Shown: in pieces, positions 2,749 to 30,779 of the stretch
Layout of the letters: the number at the start of each line of letters is the position of its first letter
Numbering within the stretch: position 1 is the first letter of the stretch
Assembly (NCBI GenBank): GCA_018820315.1
Contig: JAHJOQ010000157.1
Location: 1-32,081, forward strand
Direction of reading: 5' to 3'
From: Candidatus Zixiibacteriota bacterium
GTDB taxonomy: Bacteria; Zixibacteria; MSB-5A5; JAABVY01; JAHJOQ01
Length of the DNA stretch: 32,081 bases
Notes under the pieces: model-generated
What the model was told of the DNA's origin: nothing
Databases searched by the model: none
What the model saw: only the letters and a program-made list of their open reading frames with translations
Program-made: the position numbers and the translations under genes

Positions 2749-3564
2749 CTATGACTTGACTGCGCCGGCGGTTATCCCGGATACGATCTGGCGCTGGAAC
2801 AGTAGAAAGACAGCTATCACAGGAATCGCCGATATTGTCGATGCCGCGAACAGCTGTGGCCAATCGATTTGCTGATACCCCTGCAAAAGTGCGAGCATGA
2901 CCGGAAGTGTTCGCATTGTCTCCGATGATGTCAGGATGAACGGAAGCAAGAATGAATTCCAGTTTGTCATGAAGACTTGCACGGCAAGGACCGCCAGCAC
3001 CGGTTTGCACATCGGCGCGACCACCGAGAAAAGAATTCTCAGCTCACCCGCACCATCGATGCGTGCCGCCTCTTCAAGATCGGGCGGAAGCTCTCGGATG
3101 TACTGAGTGATCAGCAGCACGGCGAGTGGATTCACGAGGAAAGGCACAATAAGGGCGAAGTAGGAATCGTACCACCCGAGGCCTTTTATCAAGAGAAATA
3201 GGGGGATGATGATTATATGCACCGGTATCATCAGGACTGCCGCCACCGACAGAAAGAGGAGCTTGTTAAACTTGAGTTTGAACCGCGCGAAAGCATAACC
3301 GACCATCAGACAGAAGACGAGATTGCCGACTGTTACGATTCCGCCGACAACGAGCGAATTTAAGATTGAACGGCTGAAACCGCTGACTTTGAGGATCGAA
3401 GAGAGATTCTCAAGAGTGAACCTGTACTCAGTCAAATTGCGAAGGAGCGAGCCCGATGCAAAACTCTCGGAGAATGTTCCGAGAAGCATCCACCAGAGTG
3501 GCAGAAGCATGCCAATGAGGATCACCAGCATGAGAATCCATGTAAGAACGTTGCGAATCTTCAT
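2749..3564 (-). CDS. Carbohydrate ABC transporter permease, MalG-like
   Basis: A 271-residue inner-membrane permease of the CUT1 sugar-importer type, with about six hydrophobic segments. The cytoplasmic EAA loop, which docks onto the ATPase, is visible at about residues 165-184 (EAARIDGAGE, then a conserved P at 184). An N-terminal transmembrane segment lies at about 8-28. The start ATG overlaps the stop of the partner permease by 4 nt (3561-3564), so the two permeases are translationally coupled and presumably form a heterodimer. It is the last gene of a three-gene minus-strand operon. The substrate cannot be read from the sequence; the family imports oligosaccharides, glycerol-3-phosphate or similar solutes. 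Confidence 0.93.
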   Translation of the reverse strand: MKIRNVLTWILMLVILIGMLLPLWWMLLGTFSESFASGSLLRNLTEYRFTLENLSSILKVSGFSRSILNSLVVGGIVTVGNLVFCLMVGYAFARFKLKFNKLLFLSVAAVLMIPVHIIIIPLFLLIKGLGWYDSYFALIVPFLVNPLAVLLITQYIRELPPDLEEAARIDGAGELRILFSVVAPMCKPVLAVLAVQVFMTNWNSFLLPFILTSSETMRTLPVMLALLQGYQQIDWPQLFAASTISAIPVIAVFLLFQRQIVSGITAGAVKS

Positions 3565-4451
3565 TCTGCAGTGCTCCGTCCAACGCGGAAGAGCCGCATT
3601 TGTATCAGCGCGAAAATCATGATCAGGACGAACAGTATATATGCTGCCGCCGATGCATAGCCCATGTCGAACCGATGCAGCCCTCGGTCATAAACAAAAT
3701 AGACAGCGGTGAGCGTTGAGTTCAACGGTCCGCCTTTGGTCATGACGAATATCTCGACGAACACCTGGAAAGACTTGATGGTATTGATCAGTATTATGTA
3801 AAGTGCCATTGGGCGCAATTGCGGGAGCGTGATCCTGATAAATGATGACCATGACGATGCACCATCGATTGCAGCTGCTTCATAATGCTCCTGCGGGATT
3901 GATTTGAGTGCGGCGAGGAATAGAAGCATATAGTAGCCGGAGGCAATCCAGATGTCCATCGCCATAATGGCAAAGAGCGCCGTTGACTCAGAGAAAAGAA
4001 AGCCACGTTCCGGCGTCGGGATGCCAACCAGGTCGCAGAGCATCGTCAGGTAGCCGCCTCTGGAGTACAGATTCGTGAAAATCAATGCTATGACAACGAG
4101 AGATGTGATAGATGGAATGAAGTATCCCGATCTGAAGAATCGTGCTCCCGGTATCTTACGATTGACCAGCAGCGCAAGAGCTAACGCAAACAGAGTCGTG
4201 AATGGAATAGTCCCGACTACGAATATCAGCGTATTGAACAATGCCTTCAGGAAGTCCGAATCCATGAAAAGATTGCGGTAGTTCGCAAAGCCGACGAAGT
4301 TGATGGTTCGACCGAGCAATTCATAGTCTGTGAGACTTAGATAGAAAGAGTAGGCGAGAGGATAGAGCCAGAATAGCAATAGAGTGATAATCCAGGGTGA
4401 AAGATACAACAGCGCAGTTCTTCGGTATGAGAGCGGTCGATTGACGGCCAT
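3561..4451 (-). CDS. Carbohydrate ABC transporter permease, MalF/UgpA-like
   Basis: A 296-residue integral membrane protein with six predicted transmembrane helices, the first at about 13-33. The EAA loop is at about residues 190-210 (EAAAIDGAS followed by LPQLRP). This is the MalF/UgpA side of a CUT1 permease pair. It starts 4 nt after the stop of the upstream binding-protein gene and overlaps the downstream permease gene by 4 nt, as in standard sugar importers. No long periplasmic insert like that of enterobacterial MalF is present, so it is the short UgpA-like form. Confidence 0.93.
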   Translation of the reverse strand: MAVNRPLSYRRTALLYLSPWIITLLLFWLYPLAYSFYLSLTDYELLGRTINFVGFANYRNLFMDSDFLKALFNTLIFVVGTIPFTTLFALALALLVNRKIPGARFFRSGYFIPSITSLVVIALIFTNLYSRGGYLTMLCDLVGIPTPERGFLFSESTALFAIMAMDIWIASGYYMLLFLAALKSIPQEHYEAAAIDGASSWSSFIRITLPQLRPMALYIILINTIKSFQVFVEIFVMTKGGPLNSTLTAVYFVYDRGLHRFDMGYASAAAYILFVLIMIFALIQMRLFRVGRSTAE

Positions 4452-4455
4452 ATCT

Positions 4456-5676
4456 CTATTCCAGCAGCTTTTTGATTTCGTTGGAAGCTTTTGTCAGCGC
4501 GGTGCTCGCATCTGATTTGTGGTAGATCGCTTCTTCTACAGCTCTTTCAATGATTTCCTCAATATACACCCACTCTGGATGGAGCGGTGAGGAGCGAGCG
4601 GTCATGATCTGCTGGAGAAATATCCATCGCAGTGCGTTCGGATCCTGCATCATCTTTACTGAAGCCATGATATTCGCAGGCGTAGGACTACCGACAGCTT
4701 TGCAGAATTCGTAATCCGGTATTTCTGAGGTCAGATAGGTGGCAAGCTTAAGCGCTTCGCTTTGATAGTCGGATGCCGAGTTAACAGCAAGATATTCTCC
4801 TCCAGCGAATGATACGGACACATCACCGGAGTCAGGGACAGGAATTACCCACCCGCCGACATCGAAGGGAGGGGGCTGTTTGTCAATGCGTTTCAACAGC
4901 CAGTCGCCGGAAATTATGAACCCGAGTTCACCCGCGAGGAACTTGTCATCGAGTGCGCGTTGCGTGTCCATGTAACCGACATCTGAGAGGGAGACATAAT
5001 ACTCTAATGCTTCGATAGCCGGCTGTTCACCGAGCAGCGATTCGGATCCATTGTCGGAGAGTATTTCGCCGCCATTGCTCCACAGGAACGGCAGAAACTT
5101 CTTGTAGAGCCGATGCCTCTCGGCAGAGTTCGAGCCGAAACCGAAATACGGCTCTCCAAGCGCCGTTATCTGCTTAGACTGCCGCAGCAAATCTGCCCAA
5201 GTGGCTGGAGGATCTGTATTACTTTCACCGGACCGTAATAGCAGATCCTTGTTGTAATAGAGAATCCTCGTTCCGAGCAGCCACGGGATAGCGTACGCTC
5301 GGTTCTGGTACAGCGCAGGTTCCCACATCATGAATTCAGCTTGTGCGCTGTCATGGAATTCGGATATATCTGCGAGAACGCCCTGCCTCGCGAATTCGCC
5401 GATCCAGTCTGATCCCAATTCGATTAAATCGGGAGCGGTTCTGGTAGAAAACGCAACGACTATTTTCTCGTGTCCGTCGGACCACGTGAGATCGACCAGA
5501 TCAACAGTCACGTTGGGGTTAAGCTCTTCATATTCGCGGATTAGTCTTTCGATGGTCGGTTTGACTTCCGGAGAAGTCCAGAACTGCCAGAAGCTGAGCC
5601 GAATCTTGTTCGAGTCGGCACTGCCTCCACAACCGGCCAGCAAGGCTACAAGACAAAGCAATGCGATCTTCTTCAT
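4456..5676 (-). CDS. Extracellular solute-binding lipoprotein of the sugar ABC importer
   Basis: A 406-residue family-1 solute-binding protein. The N-terminus has a short hydrophobic signal with lipobox LLAGC and lipid-attachment cysteine C16, followed by GGS linker residues. The body has features of sugar-binding proteins, such as the early FWQFWTS strand, the AFSTRTAPDL segment and the AIPWLLGTRILYYNKDLL region. It would deliver a sugar or related solute to the permease pair encoded directly downstream. It is the first gene of the minus-strand operon; the operon lacks an ATPase, as is common when one MsmX/UgpC-type ATPase serves several importers. Its 5' end faces the divergent unknown membrane operon across about 130 nt. 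Confidence 0.93.
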   Translation of the reverse strand: MKKIALLCLVALLAGCGGSADSNKIRLSFWQFWTSPEVKPTIERLIREYEELNPNVTVDLVDLTWSDGHEKIVVAFSTRTAPDLIELGSDWIGEFARQGVLADISEFHDSAQAEFMMWEPALYQNRAYAIPWLLGTRILYYNKDLLLRSGESNTDPPATWADLLRQSKQITALGEPYFGFGSNSAERHRLYKKFLPFLWSNGGEILSDNGSESLLGEQPAIEALEYYVSLSDVGYMDTQRALDDKFLAGELGFIISGDWLLKRIDKQPPPFDVGGWVIPVPDSGDVSVSFAGGEYLAVNSASDYQSEALKLATYLTSEIPDYEFCKAVGSPTPANIMASVKMMQDPNALRWIFLQQIMTARSSPLHPEWVYIEEIIERAVEEAIYHKSDASTALTKASNEIKKLLE

Positions 5677-5805: not shown

Positions 5806-6927
5806 GTGAGGGCATTCTGGCTGCTCCTGTTCTGCGTTATATCTGCGCTGTTCTGTCCTGTCGCGAGCGCAGAATTCACTGCCATTGATACTCCTTCCGA
5901 TGGTGGCGGAAGTGTGACGCTTTGTTGGTCCGCGTATGATTTCGTTGGATCATCCGCCGCAGACACCCTGACAATTTATCGGCGCAATGTAGGTTCCATC
6001 GCCTGGAAATTGATAGCTGTGGCTGCATTGAGTGATGAATCGCACTTGGACGACTCTGTGGCTGATGGGAAGCCTTACGAATACATGATAGTGGCCAGAG
6101 GCGGTGATTCCTCATCGAATCTCTACGCAGGTCCGGTCTCTGCAAGTGCGCAGTGGTATAACGCACATCGCACGACTGTGCTCATCGGCACGCTCGTATG
6201 CGTCCTCACGCTCGTGGCTGTGACACTCCTGTCGAGACGCAACAAGCCATTCTATATTCGACCGATCAAAGGGCTCGAAGCAGTCGACGAGGCCGTCGGA
6301 CGGGCGACTGAGATGGGCAAGCCTGTCCTGTTCACGCCGGGTTGGGGGGGAGACATCCAGCGGCCTACCACGATTGCCGCTTTGAATATCCTTCGCTACG
6401 TGGCTGCGAAAACTGCGGAGTACCGATGCGATCTGTATTTTCCAACTCACGATCCGGTAATCATGGCTGCGGCTGAGGAAGTCGTCCGCGAATCGTATAT
6501 CGAGCAGGGACAAGCCGATATGTATAATGCTGACAATGTCTTCTATACATCATCGTCGCAGCTCGGTTATGCGGCAGCGGTGGATGGCGTTGTTTCTCGA
6601 TATAAACCAGCCGCGATCTTTCTCCTCGGGACCTTCGAGGGAGAGGCGCTCATTCTCGCGGAAACAGGCAATTCTGTCGGTGCCATGCAGGTGGCGGGGA
6701 CCGACTCCACAATACAGCTATCGTTCTTCATGGTAGCTTGCGATTTTACGTTGATCGGAGAAGAACTCTTTGCAGCCTCCGGCTATTTGACTAAGGATGC
6801 CAAGATACTGTCATCGGTGAAAGTGCAGGACTTCCTGAAAATTGCAATTGTCGCACTGCTCTTTGCCGGTGCAATCATGGTAACATTCGGATCGAACACA
6901 CTGGCAGAGTGGATCGGACGAACGTAG
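5806..6927 (+). CDS. Unrecognised membrane protein with signal peptide, fibronectin-III-like domain and C-terminal domain
   Basis: I do not recognise this protein with confidence; a DUF6754-like assignment is possible. With the GTG at 5806 it has 373 residues. It opens with a signal peptide (MRAFWLLLFCVIS to about CPVASA), then a domain of about 80 residues with fibronectin-III character (tryptophan in TLCWSAYD, later YEYMIVARG). A transmembrane helix follows (about 119-138, VLIGTLVCVLTLVAV) ending in SRRNK, which by the positive-inside rule puts the next domain in the cytoplasm. That ~200-residue alpha/beta domain contains FTPGWGGDIQRPTT, YFPTHDP and FLLGTFEGE. A final hydrophobic helix sits near the C-terminus. 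The open frame extends to a TTG at 5728, but that would bury the signal peptide. It is the first gene of a packed operon, 10 nt before the next gene. Confidence 0.75.
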   Translation: MRAFWLLLFCVISALFCPVASAEFTAIDTPSDGGGSVTLCWSAYDFVGSSAADTLTIYRRNVGSIAWKLIAVAALSDESHLDDSVADGKPYEYMIVARGGDSSSNLYAGPVSASAQWYNAHRTTVLIGTLVCVLTLVAVTLLSRRNKPFYIRPIKGLEAVDEAVGRATEMGKPVLFTPGWGGDIQRPTTIAALNILRYVAAKTAEYRCDLYFPTHDPVIMAAAEEVVRESYIEQGQADMYNADNVFYTSSSQLGYAAAVDGVVSRYKPAAIFLLGTFEGEALILAETGNSVGAMQVAGTDSTIQLSFFMVACDFTLIGEELFAASGYLTKDAKILSSVKVQDFLKIAIVALLFAGAIMVTFGSNTLAEWIGRT

Positions 6928-6937
6928 GATATCAACT

Positions 6938-7561
6938 GTGCTGAACAAGAAAATGCCATTGGCGGTTTGCTTCCTTGCAGGCGTATTCGGGCTTGTTCAG
7001 TATTTCTCTCCACATCCAATGGTAGTGTCAACATATTCGACACTACTGGACTGGGTCCAGATCATATTTGCGTTTACACTGATTGTCGGCGTGTTGTCGG
7101 TCTTCCAGATGCACTTCAAGCGGATTTCACGCCGCGAAAGATTCTGGGGTTTCAGCATAATCACACTCATGGCTATTGTGGTTATGGCTGTGGCTGGCTT
7201 TGCCGGCGGAACAGACAGTGGATCGGTCTTTGTCTGGATGTTTGACAATATGCAGGTGCCTATGCAGTCGACGGTGTTCGCGTTGCTTGCGTTCTTTGTT
7301 GCATCGGCTGCCTACCGCGGATTTCGACTTCGCAATGTTGAGGCAGGCATCCTGCTGGCTACAGCGCTCGTGATAATGCTTGGAAGGATACCGGTCGGCG
7401 AACTCATCGGTGACTTCGTTCCTGCGAGTGCGGAGTGGATACTGAATGTTCCGTCAATGGCGGCCAAGAGGGCAGTGCTGATCGGTATCGGGCTCGGCTC
7501 CATAACCACGGCATTGCGCGTGATACTCGGGATTGAGAGAAGCTATCTCGGGAGGAATTGA
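6938..7561 (+). CDS. Unrecognised polytopic membrane protein
   Basis: A 207-residue protein made almost entirely of hydrophobic segments: I count about six transmembrane helices (around 5-22, 32-55, 65-85, 95-118, 125-145 and 178-198). Charged loops such as KRISRRER after the second helix suggest a cytoplasmic loop there. I do not recognise a family. The GTG at 6938 is used here; an in-frame ATG at 6953 is an alternative. The stop codon (7559-7561) overlaps the ATG of the next gene (7561) in a TGATG arrangement, indicating translational coupling and probably a shared complex. Confidence 0.75.
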   Translation: MLNKKMPLAVCFLAGVFGLVQYFSPHPMVVSTYSTLLDWVQIIFAFTLIVGVLSVFQMHFKRISRRERFWGFSIITLMAIVVMAVAGFAGGTDSGSVFVWMFDNMQVPMQSTVFALLAFFVASAAYRGFRLRNVEAGILLATALVIMLGRIPVGELIGDFVPASAEWILNVPSMAAKRAVLIGIGLGSITTALRVILGIERSYLGRN

Positions 7562-8361
7562 TGGATTTGTCACGACTCGACAGGAGGATCATATATCTTT
7601 TGCTGCTGGCAGCAGTCGCGATACCGCTGACTCTCAAGGTAAACCTGCCGGTCAGTGTTGGACCGGAGACGCAAAAAGTGTATGACGCCATAGATGCTCT
7701 GCCGCAAGGCAGCAGGATCATGATCTCGTTTGATATCGAGGCATCATCGCTGCCGGAGATTCAGCCGGTCGCAATTGCGATCATCAAACATGCATTCAGC
7801 AAGGACCTTCACATTATCGGACTCGCGCTCTTCTCTGAAGGTACTGCGATTGGATATAATCTCCTGTCGTCTATCGCTCGCAGCTATGACAAGGAATATG
7901 GCGATGACTTCATATACCTGGGATACCGTCCGCAGTACGTCTCTGCCATATTGGGAATGGGGGAGAATATCAGGGATGTCTTTCCGCTCGATTATCGCAA
8001 CGAGAATTGGCTCGACTTTCCGGCATTTTCTGATCTTTCCGACTACGATGATATTCCCCTTGTAGTCTCCCTTGCAGATGGCTCGCTGCCGACGTACTGG
8101 GTCGAGTATGCCGGGGCACGATACGGCCAGAAAGTGGCCACGGGCCTGACTGCCGTGATGGCAACATCCTACTATCCGTATACGGCCTCCGGTCAACTTG
8201 AAGGGCTTGTTGGTGGGTTGAAGGGCGCTTCCGAATATGAGAAGCTGCTCGGCTACAGTGGCGGCGGACAGAGGGGCATGCTTGCACAGTCATCAGGTCA
8301 CCTTATGATTGTCCTCCTTGTAATTATCGCCAACCTTGCCGCCTGGAGAAGGAAGCTCTGA
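7561..8361 (+). CDS. Unrecognised bitopic membrane protein with a large extracytoplasmic alpha/beta domain
   Basis: Using the ATG at 7561, preceded by GGAGG at 7551-7555, the protein has 266 residues. An N-terminal membrane anchor (about 10-27, after RLDRR) should place the bulk of the protein outside the cytoplasm. The central ~210 residues read as alternating strands and helices (RIMISFDIE, IIGLALFSEG, DDFIYLGYRP, IPLVVSLADG) like a Rossmann-type fold. A second helix (about 242-261) returns it to the membrane, ending AWRRKL. No catalytic motif is obvious. It is coupled to both neighbours by TGATG overlaps. The order of strands and helices resembles the C-terminal domain of the first gene of the operon, which may mean distant homology. 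Confidence 0.75.
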   Translation: MDLSRLDRRIIYLLLLAAVAIPLTLKVNLPVSVGPETQKVYDAIDALPQGSRIMISFDIEASSLPEIQPVAIAIIKHAFSKDLHIIGLALFSEGTAIGYNLLSSIARSYDKEYGDDFIYLGYRPQYVSAILGMGENIRDVFPLDYRNENWLDFPAFSDLSDYDDIPLVVSLADGSLPTYWVEYAGARYGQKVATGLTAVMATSYYPYTASGQLEGLVGGLKGASEYEKLLGYSGGGQRGMLAQSSGHLMIVLLVIIANLAAWRRKL

Positions 8362-8957
8362 TGGAACTCGGTACACTTGTCGCACTCGTGCTGACTCTGC
8401 TGATCTTCTCATTCCTGTATAGGGAGAATCCATTCTATCGCTTTGCTGAATATCTTCTGGTCGGCATCTCTGTAGGGTATTATCTGGTCATAATATCGAG
8501 AAACACGATTTATCCGCTGGTGATCGATAAGCTATTTCTCAGAGGCGAGATGATTGTGCTGGTACCGGTAATTCTCGGATTGATGATGTTCGCACGCCTG
8601 AATAGGCGATGGGCGTACATGTCACGATTGCCGCTCTCCTTAATGATCGGCTTTGGAGCAGGCATATCGATTCCAGCGATGCTTCAAGCACGAATCCTTA
8701 AGCAGATGTCTGCTTCGATGCAGTCTCTTTTCACGATCAATGGCATTATCATCCTGGTTGGGATTGTCACCACGACGGCGTATTTTTTCTTCTCGCGAAA
8801 GCAAGAAGGCTTTTACGGTGAGTTCACGAAACTCGGAACCTATTTTCTCATGGTCTTTTTCGGTGCGACATTCGGATATACAGTGATGTCGCGAATATCG
8901 TTACTTATTGGTAGACTTGAATTTATACTGAGAGATGCAATTGGGTTGATTTCCTGA
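8361..8957 (+). CDS. Unrecognised polytopic membrane protein
   Basis: A 198-residue protein with about six hydrophobic helices (around 3-20, 28-46, 63-78, 91-106, 124-145 and 160-178). Short charged loops include YRENPFYRFAEY near the N-terminus and SRKQEGFYGEF after the fifth helix. I recognise no family. Its ATG overlaps the previous stop by one base, and its own stop (8955-8957) overlaps the ATG of a 39-codon zinc-ribbon gene in the same TGATG manner. Such end-to-end coupling over four genes strongly suggests that the products work together in the membrane. Confidence 0.75.
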   Translation: MELGTLVALVLTLLIFSFLYRENPFYRFAEYLLVGISVGYYLVIISRNTIYPLVIDKLFLRGEMIVLVPVILGLMMFARLNRRWAYMSRLPLSLMIGFGAGISIPAMLQARILKQMSASMQSLFTINGIIILVGIVTTTAYFFFSRKQEGFYGEFTKLGTYFLMVFFGATFGYTVMSRISLLIGRLEFILRDAIGLIS

Positions 8958-9076
8958 TGATATGCACCAAATGCAGCACAGCGATGAAAGAGATCAAGCG
9001 GTCTTTCCACAAGCAGCGCAAGTGGATATGCCCTAAATGCGGTGCTGTGAAATTCCAGAAGATCAGAAAGAAGTGA
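8957..9076 (+). CDS. 39-residue zinc-ribbon protein
   Basis: This short gene has an ATG at 8957 that overlaps the previous stop codon by one base, and ends with TGA at 9074-9076. The product has two CxxC knuckles, C3-TK-C6 and C25-PK-C28, separated by a basic helix-like linker, and a lysine/arginine-rich tail (QKIRKK). This is the pattern of a minimal zinc ribbon, which commonly binds nucleic acid or protein partners. It is reported because the two CxxC motifs, the coupled start and the clean stop are unlikely to occur by chance, although it is too short for many gene callers. What it does in the membrane operon is unknown. Confidence 0.75.
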   Translation: MICTKCSTAMKEIKRSFHKQRKWICPKCGAVKFQKIRKK

Positions 9077-9120: not shown

Positions 9121-9927
9121 ATGGCAGATCTAAGGGAAGTAAAAATCGGCACTTCGGGCTACTCTTTTCTTGATTGGGTAGGTGTGTTTTATCCCGATGA
9201 TATCAAGAAGGGCAAAATGCTCGATTACTATGTCAATCACTTTGACATTGTCGAAATAAACTCATCCTATTATAGGATTCCACATCCGAGAGTATTTGAG
9301 AATATGGAGAAGAAGACGCCCGATCATTTTGAGTTTATGGTCAAGACTCACATGAGCGTGACGCATGATCGAAAGGACGTCATGGCGCAGGTGGATGAAT
9401 TCAAAGAGAGCATTAAACCTCTTGTTGATGCGGGTAAGCTGAGAGGCCTGTTGATGCAATTTCCATTCTCATTCAGGTGGTCACAGCAGAACCTGTCATA
9501 TCTGGCGCGTGCAACCGGGTTGCTTGACAGATACCCGCTCTACATTGAATTCAGACATAGGGGATGGCATCGAGACGAAGTATTTGCACTGTGCGAGAAG
9601 GCGAACATCAGTCTCTGCTCCGTCGACGGTCCTCAGTTATCCTCGCTGCCCAGGCCGGAGCTATTCGAATGCGCGCGGAGGATATATGTGCGGCTGCACG
9701 GGAGGAATGCTGAGCATTGGTGGAATGGAGGGGCGCTCAGATATGATTATCTGTATTCCGAAAAGCAACTGAAGAGCTGGATAGATAATATTCGCGAAGC
9801 GAAGAGGGCAGCCGGTGAAATGTATGTCTTCTTCAACAACTGCCATCATGGTCAGGCTGTGCAAAATGCCAAAATGTTGAAAGAGATGATCAGGCGCGAG
9901 ATTGACCAGGAGAGTGACAACAAATGA
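9121..9927 (+). CDS. DUF72 family protein (YecE-like)
   Basis: The 268-residue product matches the DUF72/YecE family, predicted to be a TIM barrel. Signature segments are IGTSGYSFLDW near the start, VEINSSYYRIP, MQFPFSF, IEFRHRGWH, YVRLHGRN and FFNNCHHGQAVQNA near the end. The length is typical. The biochemical function of the family is not established; a nuclease or sugar-related TIM-barrel role has been suggested but I see nothing that decides it. No strong Shine-Dalgarno lies ahead of the ATG at 9121. Its stop overlaps the start of the carboxypeptidase gene by 4 nt (9924-9927). Confidence 0.9.
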   Translation: MADLREVKIGTSGYSFLDWVGVFYPDDIKKGKMLDYYVNHFDIVEINSSYYRIPHPRVFENMEKKTPDHFEFMVKTHMSVTHDRKDVMAQVDEFKESIKPLVDAGKLRGLLMQFPFSFRWSQQNLSYLARATGLLDRYPLYIEFRHRGWHRDEVFALCEKANISLCSVDGPQLSSLPRPELFECARRIYVRLHGRNAEHWWNGGALRYDYLYSEKQLKSWIDNIREAKRAAGEMYVFFNNCHHGQAVQNAKMLKEMIRREIDQESDNK

Positions 9928-10892
9928 AACGCAGCAGACAGATATTCTTCATAGGAGCCGCGACATTGATTATGCTTGGCTGCTATCACCGTTTCGGGTA
10001 TCCATTACGGAACTTCTTTGATGCTTCATTGTGCGCTGACGCTTATCTCGCTACTGTGACAATGCCACTTACTGACACATATTTCCAGACTGAGCGAAAC
10101 GTAAGTCGAAAGCCTTCCGTGAACTGCAGCGCTGCGATCGTGATTGACAACTCCACAAATGAGATTCTCTATCAGAAGAACGCTGACGCCGTTCGGTCGA
10201 TCGCTTCAATCACCAAGCTGCTGACCGCTATGGTATTGATTGACCTCGACCTCGATTGGGCCGAAGTAGTCAAAGTCAGCAGAGAGGATGCGAGTAACTC
10301 AGCTCGATCCAGGTTGAAGATTGGAGAGACCTTCTATGCCAGTGATCTGTTTTACATTATGCTCATCAACTCGGACAATCGCGCAGCCCGGACGCTTGCC
10401 CGGAGTACAGGTCTGTCAAATGCTGAGTTCGTAGCGCGCATGAACCAAAAAGCAAAATCGCTCGGAATGTACGACACGGAAATATATGAGGTGACCGGCC
10501 TCGACCAACGGAATGTGTCGACAGCTATGGACTGCGCTCGACTTATTGACGCAGCGCTGAAAGTCAAGCTGATAGCTACTGCCGCTACTACCGACCGCTA
10601 CAGCTACCGATCGCTGAATCACAAACGCAGACGGGACATTGTTAATACGAATAAGCTGCTTAGCTCAGGGTGGAGTGTGCTGGGTGGCAAGACCGGTTAC
10701 ATTCAGAAGTCAGGCTATTGCTTTGTTACGCGTCTTTGTGATGACAACAATCATGATATCACAGTTGCAGTTCTGGGTGCGCCGGGAACGAATACAAGGT
10801 TTCGCACAGCCAGAACACTTGCATCCTGGGCATTCAAGAACCTAAACCGTTTTGATCAGGAGAGCCATCATGCCGAAAGAGGAAGTGACTGA
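9924..10892 (+). CDS. D-alanyl-D-alanine carboxypeptidase (peptidase S11, PBP5/6-like)
   Basis: This 322-residue penicillin-binding protein carries the three active-site motifs of family S11: S95-I-T-K98 (nucleophile and general base), S150-D-N152 and K256-T-G258. It trims the terminal D-Ala from murein pentapeptides on the periplasmic side. The N-terminus has a hydrophobic export segment (about 8-20) ending at a cysteine (IMLGC), a poor lipobox, so it may be a signal anchor or a lipoprotein. The usual C-terminal amphipathic anchor domain of PBP5 is absent; the protein ends soon after the transpeptidase fold, as in short S11 enzymes. It overlaps the DUF72 gene by 4 nt and the next small gene by 23 nt. 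Confidence 0.93.
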   Translation: MKRSRQIFFIGAATLIMLGCYHRFGYPLRNFFDASLCADAYLATVTMPLTDTYFQTERNVSRKPSVNCSAAIVIDNSTNEILYQKNADAVRSIASITKLLTAMVLIDLDLDWAEVVKVSREDASNSARSRLKIGETFYASDLFYIMLINSDNRAARTLARSTGLSNAEFVARMNQKAKSLGMYDTEIYEVTGLDQRNVSTAMDCARLIDAALKVKLIATAATTDRYSYRSLNHKRRRDIVNTNKLLSSGWSVLGGKTGYIQKSGYCFVTRLCDDNNHDITVAVLGAPGTNTRFRTARTLASWAFKNLNRFDQESHHAERGSD

Positions 10893-11151
10893 TCCGGGGT
10901 CGATCGAACAGCTTCAGTTCAGTATCGACGCTGTTGGCACAATAGTCAACACCGATCTCCCCAAACTTGCACGGTCGATTGCGCAGCTTGATGAGATGCT
11001 GAACAATGTCGATGCCGGCAGAAAGAGAGACAACCTCGTGCTCAAGGAACTCGGATCGAATATACAGGATATTGATGCCAAGCTGGACATGCTCCTCGGG
11101 AAAGTAGACATGCTGGAACGACGGTTCGCGGAACTCATGATCGAAGGTTGA
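10870..11151 (+). CDS. Small coiled-coil protein of unknown function
   Basis: I choose the ATG at 10870 because AGGAGAG (10858-10864) lies six bases ahead of it; the open frame also extends to an ATG at 10852. The 93-residue product is acidic and helical with heptad-like leucine and isoleucine spacing (VGTIVNTDLPKLARSIAQLD, then LDMLLGKVDMLERRF), so it probably forms a coiled coil. No signal peptide, membrane segment or cysteine is present. I recognise no family. The start lies inside the 3' end of the carboxypeptidase gene, so it is likely cotranscribed and translationally coupled. Confidence 0.7.
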   Translation: MPKEEVTDPGSIEQLQFSIDAVGTIVNTDLPKLARSIAQLDEMLNNVDAGRKRDNLVLKELGSNIQDIDAKLDMLLGKVDMLERRFAELMIEG

Positions 11152-24758: not shown

Positions 24759-26579
24759 ATGGGCGCCGCCAGGATAATTATCTGGAAGGAAGCCACGCTC
24801 CTTCTAGTGCTGCTTACTCTTTTTGCATTCCACTCATGGTCTCTGAATTTCACTCAGGATGACGCCTACATATCGTATCGCTATGTCGAGAATTTCACCG
24901 AAGGTCACGGGCTCGTGTTCAACTACGGTGAAAGGGTGGAGGGTTACACGAATTTCCTTTGGATTATGATCCTCACTCTCGTCACTTTGGTCGGACTGCC
25001 GATGATTCTCGTCTCAAAGGTTCTTGGGGTTGTGTTCGGTGCAGGGACAGTTGTTCTGACCTGGTTGTTCGGTAGAGAATACTCCGATCATAAACGCTGG
25101 CTCGTGCCGTTTATCGCTCCCGCATTTCTTGTGGCGAACGGTGCTCTCTGTTACTGGGTCATCGGCGGTCTGGAGACCGGTCTATTCATATTCCTGTTCT
25201 CGCTGACGCTGTATGTGGAGATGAAGAGACCCTCGCTGACGCCGTTCATTCTGGTTCTGGCAGCACTCACACGCCCCGAAGGGGGACTACTTTTCGGCAT
25301 AGTGTTTCTCTATAGGTGGATAATCCTGCGGCACAACATGAAGCAACTCGCTGTCTTTGCCGGATCGTTCTTCGGCTTGCTCCTTCCGTATGTTATCTTC
25401 AAGCTGATTTACTTCGGTGATCTACTTCCGAATCCTTTCTATGCGAAGACAGGCCTTTCGGTAGAGTACCTGAAGAGCGGGATTGGATACGCGTGGTTGT
25501 TCTTGAAACACTACGGCGCATTCGGATTATTCTTCATCTTGCCGTTGCTCTTTCGCCGAAGCCTCCCGAATATGATCAAGTTGATGTGGATGGCGGTCGT
25601 CATCTATACTGTCTATATCATTCTCGTGGGCGGAGACGTACTGAAAGTCCACAGGTTCTTTCTCCCGATACTTCCGGCATTCTATCTCATCGCAGCGTTT
25701 AGTGCATGGAGTGTGTTAACAACGTATAAGAAAGCGAAGTGGCCGGGACTGGTCGTAGCTGCTTTTGTCGGGGGCTATATAATATGGGGTATCCTCATAC
25801 CTTTGGACTATATCAAGCAGACCGGTTATCTGGAGAGGGCCTTCATCAGCAAGATGACGCTTGTCACCGAGAGTCTCAGGGACATCGATAGAAGCGATTT
25901 TTCCATTGCGACTACAACCATCGGCAAAGTCTCGTACACTCTCAAGGGGCACAAGGTCATCGATATGCTCGGCCTGACAGATCGTCATATCGCGAAGAAT
26001 CCGGAGAAGATAGAGGGGATGCAGACTACCTGGAAGGAGCGGAATTTCAATACTGCATATCTCCTTGAACAGAAACCGGATTACATTCTGTTCTCCACCG
26101 GTCACAAAGCATCTGCGCCCGCCGAGCGAGCACTGATTCTGAACTCACAGTTCAGAGAGAATTACTCTACGATCGGTTTTCTCTCAGGCAATCGACTGAA
26201 GGTAATCTGGAAGAAGCGTGGCAACTTCTCCTCACCGAACAGGCAGCTGCCGACAACAGAATTCGCAGACCTGATGTACGACGGTCTGAATCTCATGAAT
26301 GATAAAAAGCATACAGAGGCGGTGGAAGCCTTTGAAAAAGCGGCTGAATTGTGCAATCATGACTTTGCGCTTGCGGAGTTTTTCATAGGCCAATGCTCTG
26401 GTGAACTCGGCCAGACTGAGAAGATGGTCAAGCACTGTCGAAAGGCGATTGAGCTTGATTCATACAATCTCGAAGCCAGAATGGACTTATCCACTTACTA
26501 CTCAAGTATCGGAAATGTGGAAGAAGTCCGGAAGTTGAGCAACGAGATCCTGACCATAGCTCCCTGGCTCAGGCGCTGA
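24759..26579 (+). CDS. Polytopic membrane glycosyltransferase-like protein with C-terminal TPR region
   Basis: The first ~350 residues form about ten to eleven transmembrane helices. An acidic pair in the first extracytoplasmic loop, FTQDDAYISYRY (about 30-41), followed by GHGLVFNYGERVEGYTNFLW, marks the GT-C fold of lipid-linked sugar transferases (ArnT/GT39/GT87-like). Residues ~360-500 form a soluble region outside the membrane, and ~505-606 form two to three TPR units (EAVEAFEKAAELCNHDFALAEFFIGQ and following, cited in part). The protein probably moves a sugar from a polyprenyl phosphate donor to an envelope acceptor. The acceptor is unknown. The TPR tail is unusual for this group and may bind a partner. 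Confidence 0.8.
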   Translation: MGAARIIIWKEATLLLVLLTLFAFHSWSLNFTQDDAYISYRYVENFTEGHGLVFNYGERVEGYTNFLWIMILTLVTLVGLPMILVSKVLGVVFGAGTVVLTWLFGREYSDHKRWLVPFIAPAFLVANGALCYWVIGGLETGLFIFLFSLTLYVEMKRPSLTPFILVLAALTRPEGGLLFGIVFLYRWIILRHNMKQLAVFAGSFFGLLLPYVIFKLIYFGDLLPNPFYAKTGLSVEYLKSGIGYAWLFLKHYGAFGLFFILPLLFRRSLPNMIKLMWMAVVIYTVYIILVGGDVLKVHRFFLPILPAFYLIAAFSAWSVLTTYKKAKWPGLVVAAFVGGYIIWGILIPLDYIKQTGYLERAFISKMTLVTESLRDIDRSDFSIATTTIGKVSYTLKGHKVIDMLGLTDRHIAKNPEKIEGMQTTWKERNFNTAYLLEQKPDYILFSTGHKASAPAERALILNSQFRENYSTIGFLSGNRLKVIWKKRGNFSSPNRQLPTTEFADLMYDGLNLMNDKKHTEAVEAFEKAAELCNHDFALAEFFIGQCSGELGQTEKMVKHCRKAIELDSYNLEARMDLSTYYSSIGNVEEVRKLSNEILTIAPWLRR

Positions 26580-29663: not shown

Positions 29664-30779
29664 ATGTTTAAGAAACTAGTAATAGCAGCAATCATAATCA
29701 TAGTCCCGATAATCTGGTTCGGAGCAAAGGCGATGGCTGACGTTCGGGTGAAGGATATCGCCCGCATAAATAGCCAGAATGAGGTATCGCTCATCGGCTA
29801 TGGTCTGGTCGTCGGTTTGGAAGGCACGGGGGATGGTAAAGGGACGATCTTCACTGTTCAGTCGCTGGTGAACATGCTCCAGCGGATGGGCGTGACTGTG
29901 CCGGTCGATAAAGTCAAGATCAAAAATGTCGCGGCAGTCATTGTGACTGCGGCTCTTCCTCCTGGCTCAAAACAGGGAAGTAGCATCGATTGTACGGTCT
30001 CCTCCCTTGGCGATGCTACTTCCCTAAAGGGTGGCACACTGCTGATGACACCGATGAGTGCAGTTGATGGTCGAGGTTTCGGATATTCATCCGGGCCGAT
30101 CTCAATTGGTGGCTTCAATGTCCAGGTGGATGAGAATAACAAGATTGTCAACAATTACACATTGGTCGGACGGATACCAAACGGGTTTCATGTTGATGTA
30201 GATTATTCGATGGAGGATTTCGACTGTCAACTTCTACAGCTCAGCCTTACGAATCCTGATTTCACGACCGCCGACAGACTCAAAGATAAAATCAACGAGG
30301 TGTTCCCGGGAAGTGCCTATCCACTCGACGCCGGAACTGTAGAGCTTGTGGTGCCCGATTCACTTCAGATGAAGTCGGGCTGGGTGAAATTTGTATCGTG
30401 CGTAGAGAACTTGACTATTGAACCGGATGTGCCTGCTCGTGTGGTGATCAATGAAAAGACCGGCACGATTGTAGCCGGAGAGAACGTGTCGATTGCGCCG
30501 GTTGCACTGGCTCACGGCACCATAACTATAAGCATCAAGTCCGTACCGGTGATTTCGCAGCCAGCTCCGTTCTCTCAGGGCAAGACTGTGGAAACTCAGG
30601 AGAGTTTCATCGATGTCACCGATGAAGAAGCGAGAATAGTATATTTCGAGGAGCGAACTAACATCTCCGAAGTTGCATCTGCGCTCAACGCTATCGGTGC
30701 CACTCCTCGTGATGTCATATCGATATTTCAAGCTCTGAAGGCAGCGGGAGCGCTGAGAGCGCAACTCGTGATACTCTGA
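29664..30779 (+). CDS. flgI: Flagellar P-ring protein FlgI
   Basis: A full-length, 371-residue P-ring protein. It has a signal peptide (MFKKLVIAAII to AMA-D, about residue 26), then the invariant RVKDIARI, LIGYGLVVGLEGTGDG, NVAAVIVTAALPPGSKQGS, LKGGTLLMTPM and GRIPNG segments, and the C-terminal TNISEVASALNAIGATPRD and ALKAAGALRAQLVIL (each cited in part). The P ring surrounds the rod in the peptidoglycan layer. The gene follows flgH by 9 nt. Confidence 0.97.
   Translation: MFKKLVIAAIIIIVPIIWFGAKAMADVRVKDIARINSQNEVSLIGYGLVVGLEGTGDGKGTIFTVQSLVNMLQRMGVTVPVDKVKIKNVAAVIVTAALPPGSKQGSSIDCTVSSLGDATSLKGGTLLMTPMSAVDGRGFGYSSGPISIGGFNVQVDENNKIVNNYTLVGRIPNGFHVDVDYSMEDFDCQLLQLSLTNPDFTTADRLKDKINEVFPGSAYPLDAGTVELVVPDSLQMKSGWVKFVSCVENLTIEPDVPARVVINEKTGTIVAGENVSIAPVALAHGTITISIKSVPVISQPAPFSQGKTVETQESFIDVTDEEARIVYFEERTNISEVASALNAIGATPRDVISIFQALKAAGALRAQLVIL

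Follow-up and report, generated by a model that had tools for sequence, protein, structure and literature searches.

A conserved four-gene membrane cassette with a DUF6754 subunit in Zixibacteria and other candidate phyla, and a version with an added zinc-ribbon gene

The DNA analysed here (32,081 nucleotides, "the window") belongs to a Zixibacteria genome of 3.78 Mb, of which it is contig 157. It carries at 5806–9076 five coupled genes, which the initial annotation had described as a membrane operon without a recognised function. The first four of them form a cassette with the order 1-2-3-4, found in 149 instances spread over about a dozen candidate phyla, and their products very probably form one physical inner-membrane complex. 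Gene 5 was confined to one of five paralogous clades of the cassette; thus the proposed five-gene unit stood for genes 1–4 and not for gene 5. All five open reading frames (ORFs) were present in the ORF list:

Gene 1, 5806..6927, + strand: signal-like segment, FN3 (fibronectin-III-like) domain, transmembrane helix, DUF6754 Rossmann-like domain, transmembrane helix
Gene 2, 6938..7561, + strand: polytopic membrane protein with about six transmembrane helices; no known family
Gene 3, 7561..8361, + strand: transmembrane helix, Rossmann-like domain (predicted periplasmic), transmembrane helix; no known family
Gene 4, 8361..8957, + strand: polytopic membrane protein with five to six transmembrane helices; no family above cut-off
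Gene 5, 8957..9076, + strand: 39-residue zinc ribbon with two CxxC pairs; specific to one clade (clade W, see below)

Three of the four junctions are TGATG overlaps sharing a single A at 7561, 8361 and 8957 (read at 7559–7563, 8359–8363 and 8955–8959), and the remaining one is a 10-nt gap between the stop codon of gene 1 (TAG, 6925–6927) and the start of gene 2 (GTG, 6938), all as originally reported. The start of gene 3 was ATG 7561, the upstream TTG 7558 of the ORF list being unnecessary. Gene 1 might start as far upstream as TTG 5728; the start at GTG 5806 yields a signal-like N terminus.

When all loci were read, gene 1 was followed by gene 2 in 159 cases, gene 2 by gene 3 in 155 and gene 3 by gene 4 in 152. 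The other successions were gene 4 followed by a new gene 1 (n = 40) and a doubled gene 1 (n = 2), and no further order was seen, a regularity far beyond chance. Between 83 and 89% of the cassette junctions were 20 nt or less, with many 1- or 4-nt overlaps, figures which lean towards tightness because the nearest possible start was taken for each junction. The family of gene 1, DUF6754 (PF20539), was detected in 118 of 118 sampled Zixibacteria genomes (mostly 4–6 copies) and in all 59 sampled genomes of the phylum to which a Poribacteria locus belongs (mostly one copy), and in none of 14 control genomes, which included a Bacteroides, E. coli and B. subtilis. Among the best 80 matches, it occurred at least in Latescibacterota, WOR-3/Stahlbacteria, Fermentibacteria, Poribacteria, Cloacimonadota, Eisenbacteria, Edwardsbacteria, Coatesbacteria, TA06 and Mcinerneyibacteriota; the list gives a minimum, from which absence in other phyla cannot be read.

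Gene 1 contains the full DUF6754 domain (E = 1e-96, 323.5 bits against a cut-off of 27, profile positions 2–256 of 257). Hydropathy indicated a signal-like segment and two helices, and the AlphaFold (AF2) model (pLDDT 89) had the order FN3 domain, transmembrane helix, helix, six alternating strands and helices, transmembrane helix. By residue, the FN3 domain lies at ~23–115 (pLDDT ~80–98), the transmembrane helices at 120–143 and 332–372 and DUF6754 at ~150–331. A fibronectin-III-like domain outside and an alpha/beta domain probably inside had been expected for this product, and both are supported. The former gave weak Fn3 profile matches and resembled the fold of Robo3 FN1 (TM-score 0.69 on the target over ~100 residues), and Pfam fn3 itself matched below threshold only, and in a paralogue. 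As for the latter, the sequence RRNK follows the first transmembrane helix, so that by the positive-inside rule the DUF6754 domain is predicted to be cytosolic. The search of PDB by fold was dominated by the FN3 part, and any matches of the cytosolic domain may have been masked.

The cytosolic domain of gene 1 was the most conserved part (0.76, against 0.43 for the FN3 domain and 0.56 for the soluble domain of gene 3), with near-invariant charged residues R152, R166, E169, E225, R265, E280, E286, D313, E319 and E320. That the conserved residues mark a ligand pocket on the carboxyl-end side of the strands was considered and rejected, the loops at both ends being equally conserved. The outer part ranges among homologues from no FN3 domain to several hundred residues. 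Two long homologues of 950 and 1160 residues (L154:5652-8504 and L156:4534-8016, from Cloacimonadota and Mcinerneyibacteriota) have extracytoplasmic parts with FN3-like repeats and a mostly charged, probably helical stretch.

Gene 3 was modelled with high confidence (AF2, pLDDT 96.5, pTM 0.92) in the order transmembrane helix, helix, six alternating strands and helices, transmembrane helix, and hydropathy also gave two helices. DRR before and RRKL after these helices place its alpha/beta domain in the periplasm by the same rule, as the initial annotation had suggested; soluble domains on both faces of the membrane are thus predicted. Its near-invariant charged residues are E65, D115, D143 and E226. 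No match with a TM-score above 0.5 was among the best 50 when the model was compared with PDB by fold, and the weak resemblances were to NAD- and sugar-nucleotide enzymes. In the two models, helices and strands succeed one another in identical order in the soluble domains of genes 1 and 3, consistent with a like topology. Sequence homology between them was rejected (hhalign probability 0.6–3.5%), so the likeness is stated from secondary-structure order only. Common ancestry of the two domains may be supposed.

For the two polytopic products about six helices each had been claimed; hydropathy gave six for gene 2 and five for gene 4. No homology was found between genes 2 and 4. Nothing in Pfam or NCBIfam reached the cut-off for genes 2–4, no PDB sequence matched them, and 25–32 diverse relatives of each gave no consistent family. 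TMD0_ABC matches occurred in 7 of 25 relatives of gene 2, the window copy not being one of the seven, and YLATT (PF20303) scored 16 bits against a cut-off of 26.7 for gene 4, with one of 27 members matched. A relationship of genes 2 and 4 to some known membrane fold could yet emerge from the structures of their products.

Besides the window, the same genome contains four further cassettes with a DUF6754 gene (five DUF6754 genes in all): three full ones head to tail on contig 121 (L009) and one on contig 37 (L053). They have the same four genes in the same order (~33–48% identity with the window, 41–48% for gene 1 alone) but lack the zinc ribbon, and their neighbours differ from those of the window (e.g. 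MutL, a barrel-sandwich protein and a PPDK-like enzyme). In the contig 37 cassette, gene 1 lies ~10 kb from genes 2–4, with opposite-strand genes between. This interval (L053:1469-11559) holds genes for an ArsR regulator, an ArsP-type permease, a small thioredoxin, a DsbD-like protein, an SBF-family symporter and a 1491-residue beta-helix protein; both sides remain open.

A concatenated tree of 52 cassettes of the Zixibacteria sample gave five clades, i.e. T1–T3 (the tandem copies), S (contig 37) and W (the window), and the distance matrices of the four genes were correlated at 0.78–0.94. A doubled gene 1 was seen in a clade-S cassette at L064:5512-7315. In a tree of 109 cassettes across phyla, whose deep branches were weakly supported, clade W contained only Zixibacteria and two unclassified bins (support 1.0). 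The tandem clades included non-Zixibacteria or unclassified genomes, indicating that part of the expansion is old. Triples of WOR-3 (L146) and TA06 (L152) grouped together and not with the Zixibacteria triple, and so triplication probably occurred at least twice.

Upstream of the tandem array on contig 121 are genes for a MutL-family ATPase (PF13941) and a 375-residue protein with a barrel-sandwich-like start. MutL was found in 31 of 33 DUF6754-bearing genomes and the barrel-sandwich protein likewise in 31 of 33, usually once whatever the number of cassettes, and the two genes adjoin tandem-type cassettes in Zixibacteria, Fermentibacteria and others. Fusions of the two (960–1090 residues, matching PF13941 and weakly Biotin_lipoyl/RnfC_N) occur in Cloacimonadota and Fermentibacteria (L164:7963-10866, L165, L166, L167 and L168); in two Cloacimonadota genomes the fusion gene is immediately preceded by a pair of sugar-type ABC permease genes. 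A protein of 119–137 residues with the motif PAIxxxES.KPL and no Pfam family adjoins MutL or lies between cassettes in several phyla (L132:5775-6188, L175:9686-10048, L173:7241-7600 and L180:13729-14106), and in several phyla it precedes MutL.

Of eight Zixibacteria genomes tested, five had an ExbB gene at a distance of 600–890 bp from the gene for the barrel-sandwich protein; in three genomes of WOR-3/Stahlbacteria, ExbB was ~5–6 kb away from gene 1. The same clusters continue with genes resembling ExbD and TonB, which were named from their sequence by inspection, ExbB alone having been identified by profile. At a density of about four ExbB genes in 3.5 Mb, such proximity is far from random; it may reflect one or few inherited arrangements, the genomes being related. 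Six WOR-3/Stahlbacteria loci (L091, L095, L100, L114, L120 and L129) have a fixed set downstream of the cassette, consisting of a DUF4388 protein, small proteins including two small membrane ones, and then ExbB- and ExbD-like genes.

The invariant order, the co-evolution and the tight coupling of genes 1–4 point to a single four-subunit complex. Domains on opposite faces with two-helix anchors, together with two polytopic subunits, suggest that material or a signal is passed between cytosol and periplasm; the co-occurring ATPase, and ExbB-ExbD-TonB at some loci, suggest an energy input; and the existence of several ancient paralogues, whose outer parts vary, suggests that the versions differ in their partners. 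The best overall explanation, advanced tentatively, is a four-subunit inner-membrane machine that couples cytosolic and periplasmic domains. Gene 1 would hold the conserved DUF6754 Rossmann-like domain in the cytosol and, in the window copy, an FN3 adaptor outside, and gene 3 would hold a Rossmann-like domain of the same helix and strand order in the periplasm. The flanking helices and the polytopic products of genes 2 and 4 would connect the two faces, and binding or work on one side could thereby be passed to the other. The MutL-family ASKHA ATPase and the barrel-sandwich protein beside the tandem copies would be the likely cytosolic power unit or gate, and one such pair may serve all cassette copies of a cell. 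The five paralogues would then be five specialised versions, differing in ligand or envelope partner. Whether the complex depends on ATP we judge to be evenly balanced; that it serves transport or signal coupling across the membrane, and not catalysis or scaffolding, has in our estimate somewhat less than an even chance.

Several observations weigh against such a machine. The likeness between the domains of genes 1 and 3 extends to secondary-structure order and not to profile homology. The split cassette of contig 37 indicates that contiguity is not indispensable. Clade W adjoins neither MutL nor ExbB, so the link to a power unit comes from the tandem clades only. Neighbouring genes vary between phyla and hence define no single pathway.

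The same data were set against other readings of function. One or both Rossmann-like domains might catalyse a step on a lipid, sugar or envelope polymer, with the polytopic subunits binding a lipid substrate. The many near-invariant charged residues in both domains, the NAD- and sugar-nucleotide enzymes that gene 3 weakly resembles in fold and the sugar-phosphate isomerase and nucleotidyltransferase-like genes beside clade-S copies are consistent with such an enzyme; but no enzyme family was matched by sequence, gene 3 had no fold match with a TM-score above 0.5, no nucleotide-binding or catalytic motif was recognised, and the carboxyl-end loops of the strands did not stand out in conservation, and we consider it unlikely. 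A scaffold that gives order to the inner membrane or anchors it to the outer membrane or cell wall, with neither transport nor catalysis, would agree with universal presence in two sampled phyla, often in several copies, with a variable adhesive outer part (FN3-like repeats and helical stretches) and with the cell-wall hydrolases beside clade W. It is somewhat less likely still, since the strongest conservation was in the cytosolic domain and not in the outer part, and a passive scaffold needs no co-occurring ATPase. A complex of known kind (Rnf/Nqr, ExbB-TolQ, ABC or secretion machinery) that has diverged beyond recognition by sequence is hinted at by the barrel-sandwich domain of the partner with its weak RnfC_N similarity and by the TMD0_ABC matches of some gene 2 members. 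Genes 2–4 of the window, however, matched no Rnf, Nqr, ExbB or ABC family at cut-off and nothing among PDB sequences, and separate ExbB genes occur in the same genomes, so we regard this origin as very improbable.

Gene 5 raises a similar question. The zinc ribbon recognised in the initial annotation was confirmed by PF13453, just above the cut-off (22.2 against 22 bits, i.e. marginal), with four cysteines in CxxC pairs. An ORF with the signature KRSFHKQRKWxCPxCG follows gene 4 directly in ~20 clade-W loci, some of which are possibly one genome in two collections, and nearly all of these ~20 homologues keep all four cysteines. It was not found after the cassettes of the other four clades, nor in the deep-branching W copies L042 and L051. 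This restricted distribution would suit an unrelated passenger, the operon of the window being then a four-gene cassette with neighbours; against it stands the regular position of the ORF right after gene 4, and we think a passenger rather doubtful. In the membrane-machine reading, the zinc-ribbon peptide would be an extra cytosolic subunit or assembly factor of version W, which is Zixibacteria-specific and would work together with the sugar importer and the cell-wall enzymes encoded next to it. The peptide may bind nucleic acid or protein, as the initial annotation had proposed.

The statement that no named system could be recognised was right for genes 2–4, which have no Pfam or PDB family, but gene 1 belongs to a named family. 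Pfam gives DUF6754 no function. No characterised complex was matched through Pfam, NCBIfam, PDB sequences or PDB folds, and a named complex as the explanation was therefore rejected, PADLOC also having given none. In particular, an anti-phage defence system was rejected (PADLOC gave only a weak 2TM effector match for gene 4, E = 0.003), as was viral origin (scattered low-TM matches only in a BFVD fold search). The cassette resembles Rnf/Nqr in being multi-subunit, with two polytopic subunits and a partner with a barrel-sandwich domain, but genes 1–4 matched no RnfA/D/E/G and no flavin- or Fe-S-binding family. ExbB-ExbD-TonB genes are recurrent neighbours of tandem-type cassettes (Zixibacteria, WOR-3/Stahlbacteria and Fermentibacteria), but genes 2 and 4 had no ExbB/TolQ/MotA (PF01618) match. 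No ABC nucleotide-binding subunit or permease domain was found in genes 1–5. The MutL/GlmL family is known from glutamate mutase operons; here its member is paired with the barrel-sandwich protein and a membrane cassette, outside the window itself. In the literature searched, there was no mention of DUF6754/PF20539, nothing relevant on FCB conserved proteins and GlmL, and no description of the cassette as a system or of its partners, clades or prevalence. No known kind of complex fits the cassette; the domain of gene 1 is known, and all of the genes presumably stand in public databases as hypothetical.

The transcription unit probably runs beyond 9076, the same-strand run continuing to 11151. 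The features around the five genes are:

DUF72 protein, 9121..9927, + strand: PF01904, E = 7e-64; 44 nt after gene 5, a probable continuation of the operon
D-Ala-D-Ala carboxypeptidase/endopeptidase (PBP7-like), 9924..10892, + strand: PF00768, E = 7e-48; ATGA overlap with the DUF72 gene
Short coiled-coil-like ORF, 10852..11151, + strand: overlaps the preceding gene; last co-directional ORF before a tRNA-Phe gene
Sugar ABC transporter binding protein, 4456..5676, - strand: PF01547, E = 1e-38; divergent from gene 1
Sugar ABC transporter permeases, 3561–4451 and 2749–3564: part of the divergent transporter

The DUF72 family was present in 15 loci, nearly all of clade W, and is thus a conserved neighbour of that clade; the peptidase neighbourhood was the same in ~10 other clade-W loci, and the divergent sugar ABC transporter adjoins nearly all clade-W cassettes. 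Other neighbours are an ABC-2-type exporter in many relatives and an amidase in the window and a few others. A scan of the region for promoters and terminators gave results no better than shuffles, and a search for RNA families gave none apart from two tRNAs. Elsewhere in the window are a flagellar P-ring protein FlgI (29664–30779, PF02119) and a 606-residue protein with weak TPR matches only (24759–26579).

Present in all sampled genomes of two phyla and in about ten more, with as many as five or more copies in a cell, the complex likely belongs to core physiology in lineages that have almost no cultured members. It is possible, though we would not call it probable, that the cassette represents an undescribed class of machine ancestral to several FCB-affiliated and neighbouring candidate phyla, with Rossmann-like domains of the same topology on opposite faces, a shared MutL-type ATPase and barrel-sandwich adaptor, paralogues for different cargoes and at least two triplications. 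The cassette, MutL, the barrel-sandwich protein and the paralogue clades form a concrete, testable unit, in which genes 2–4 are as yet without a family name, and the five genes of the window would be its Zixibacteria-specific version with an added zinc-ribbon subunit.

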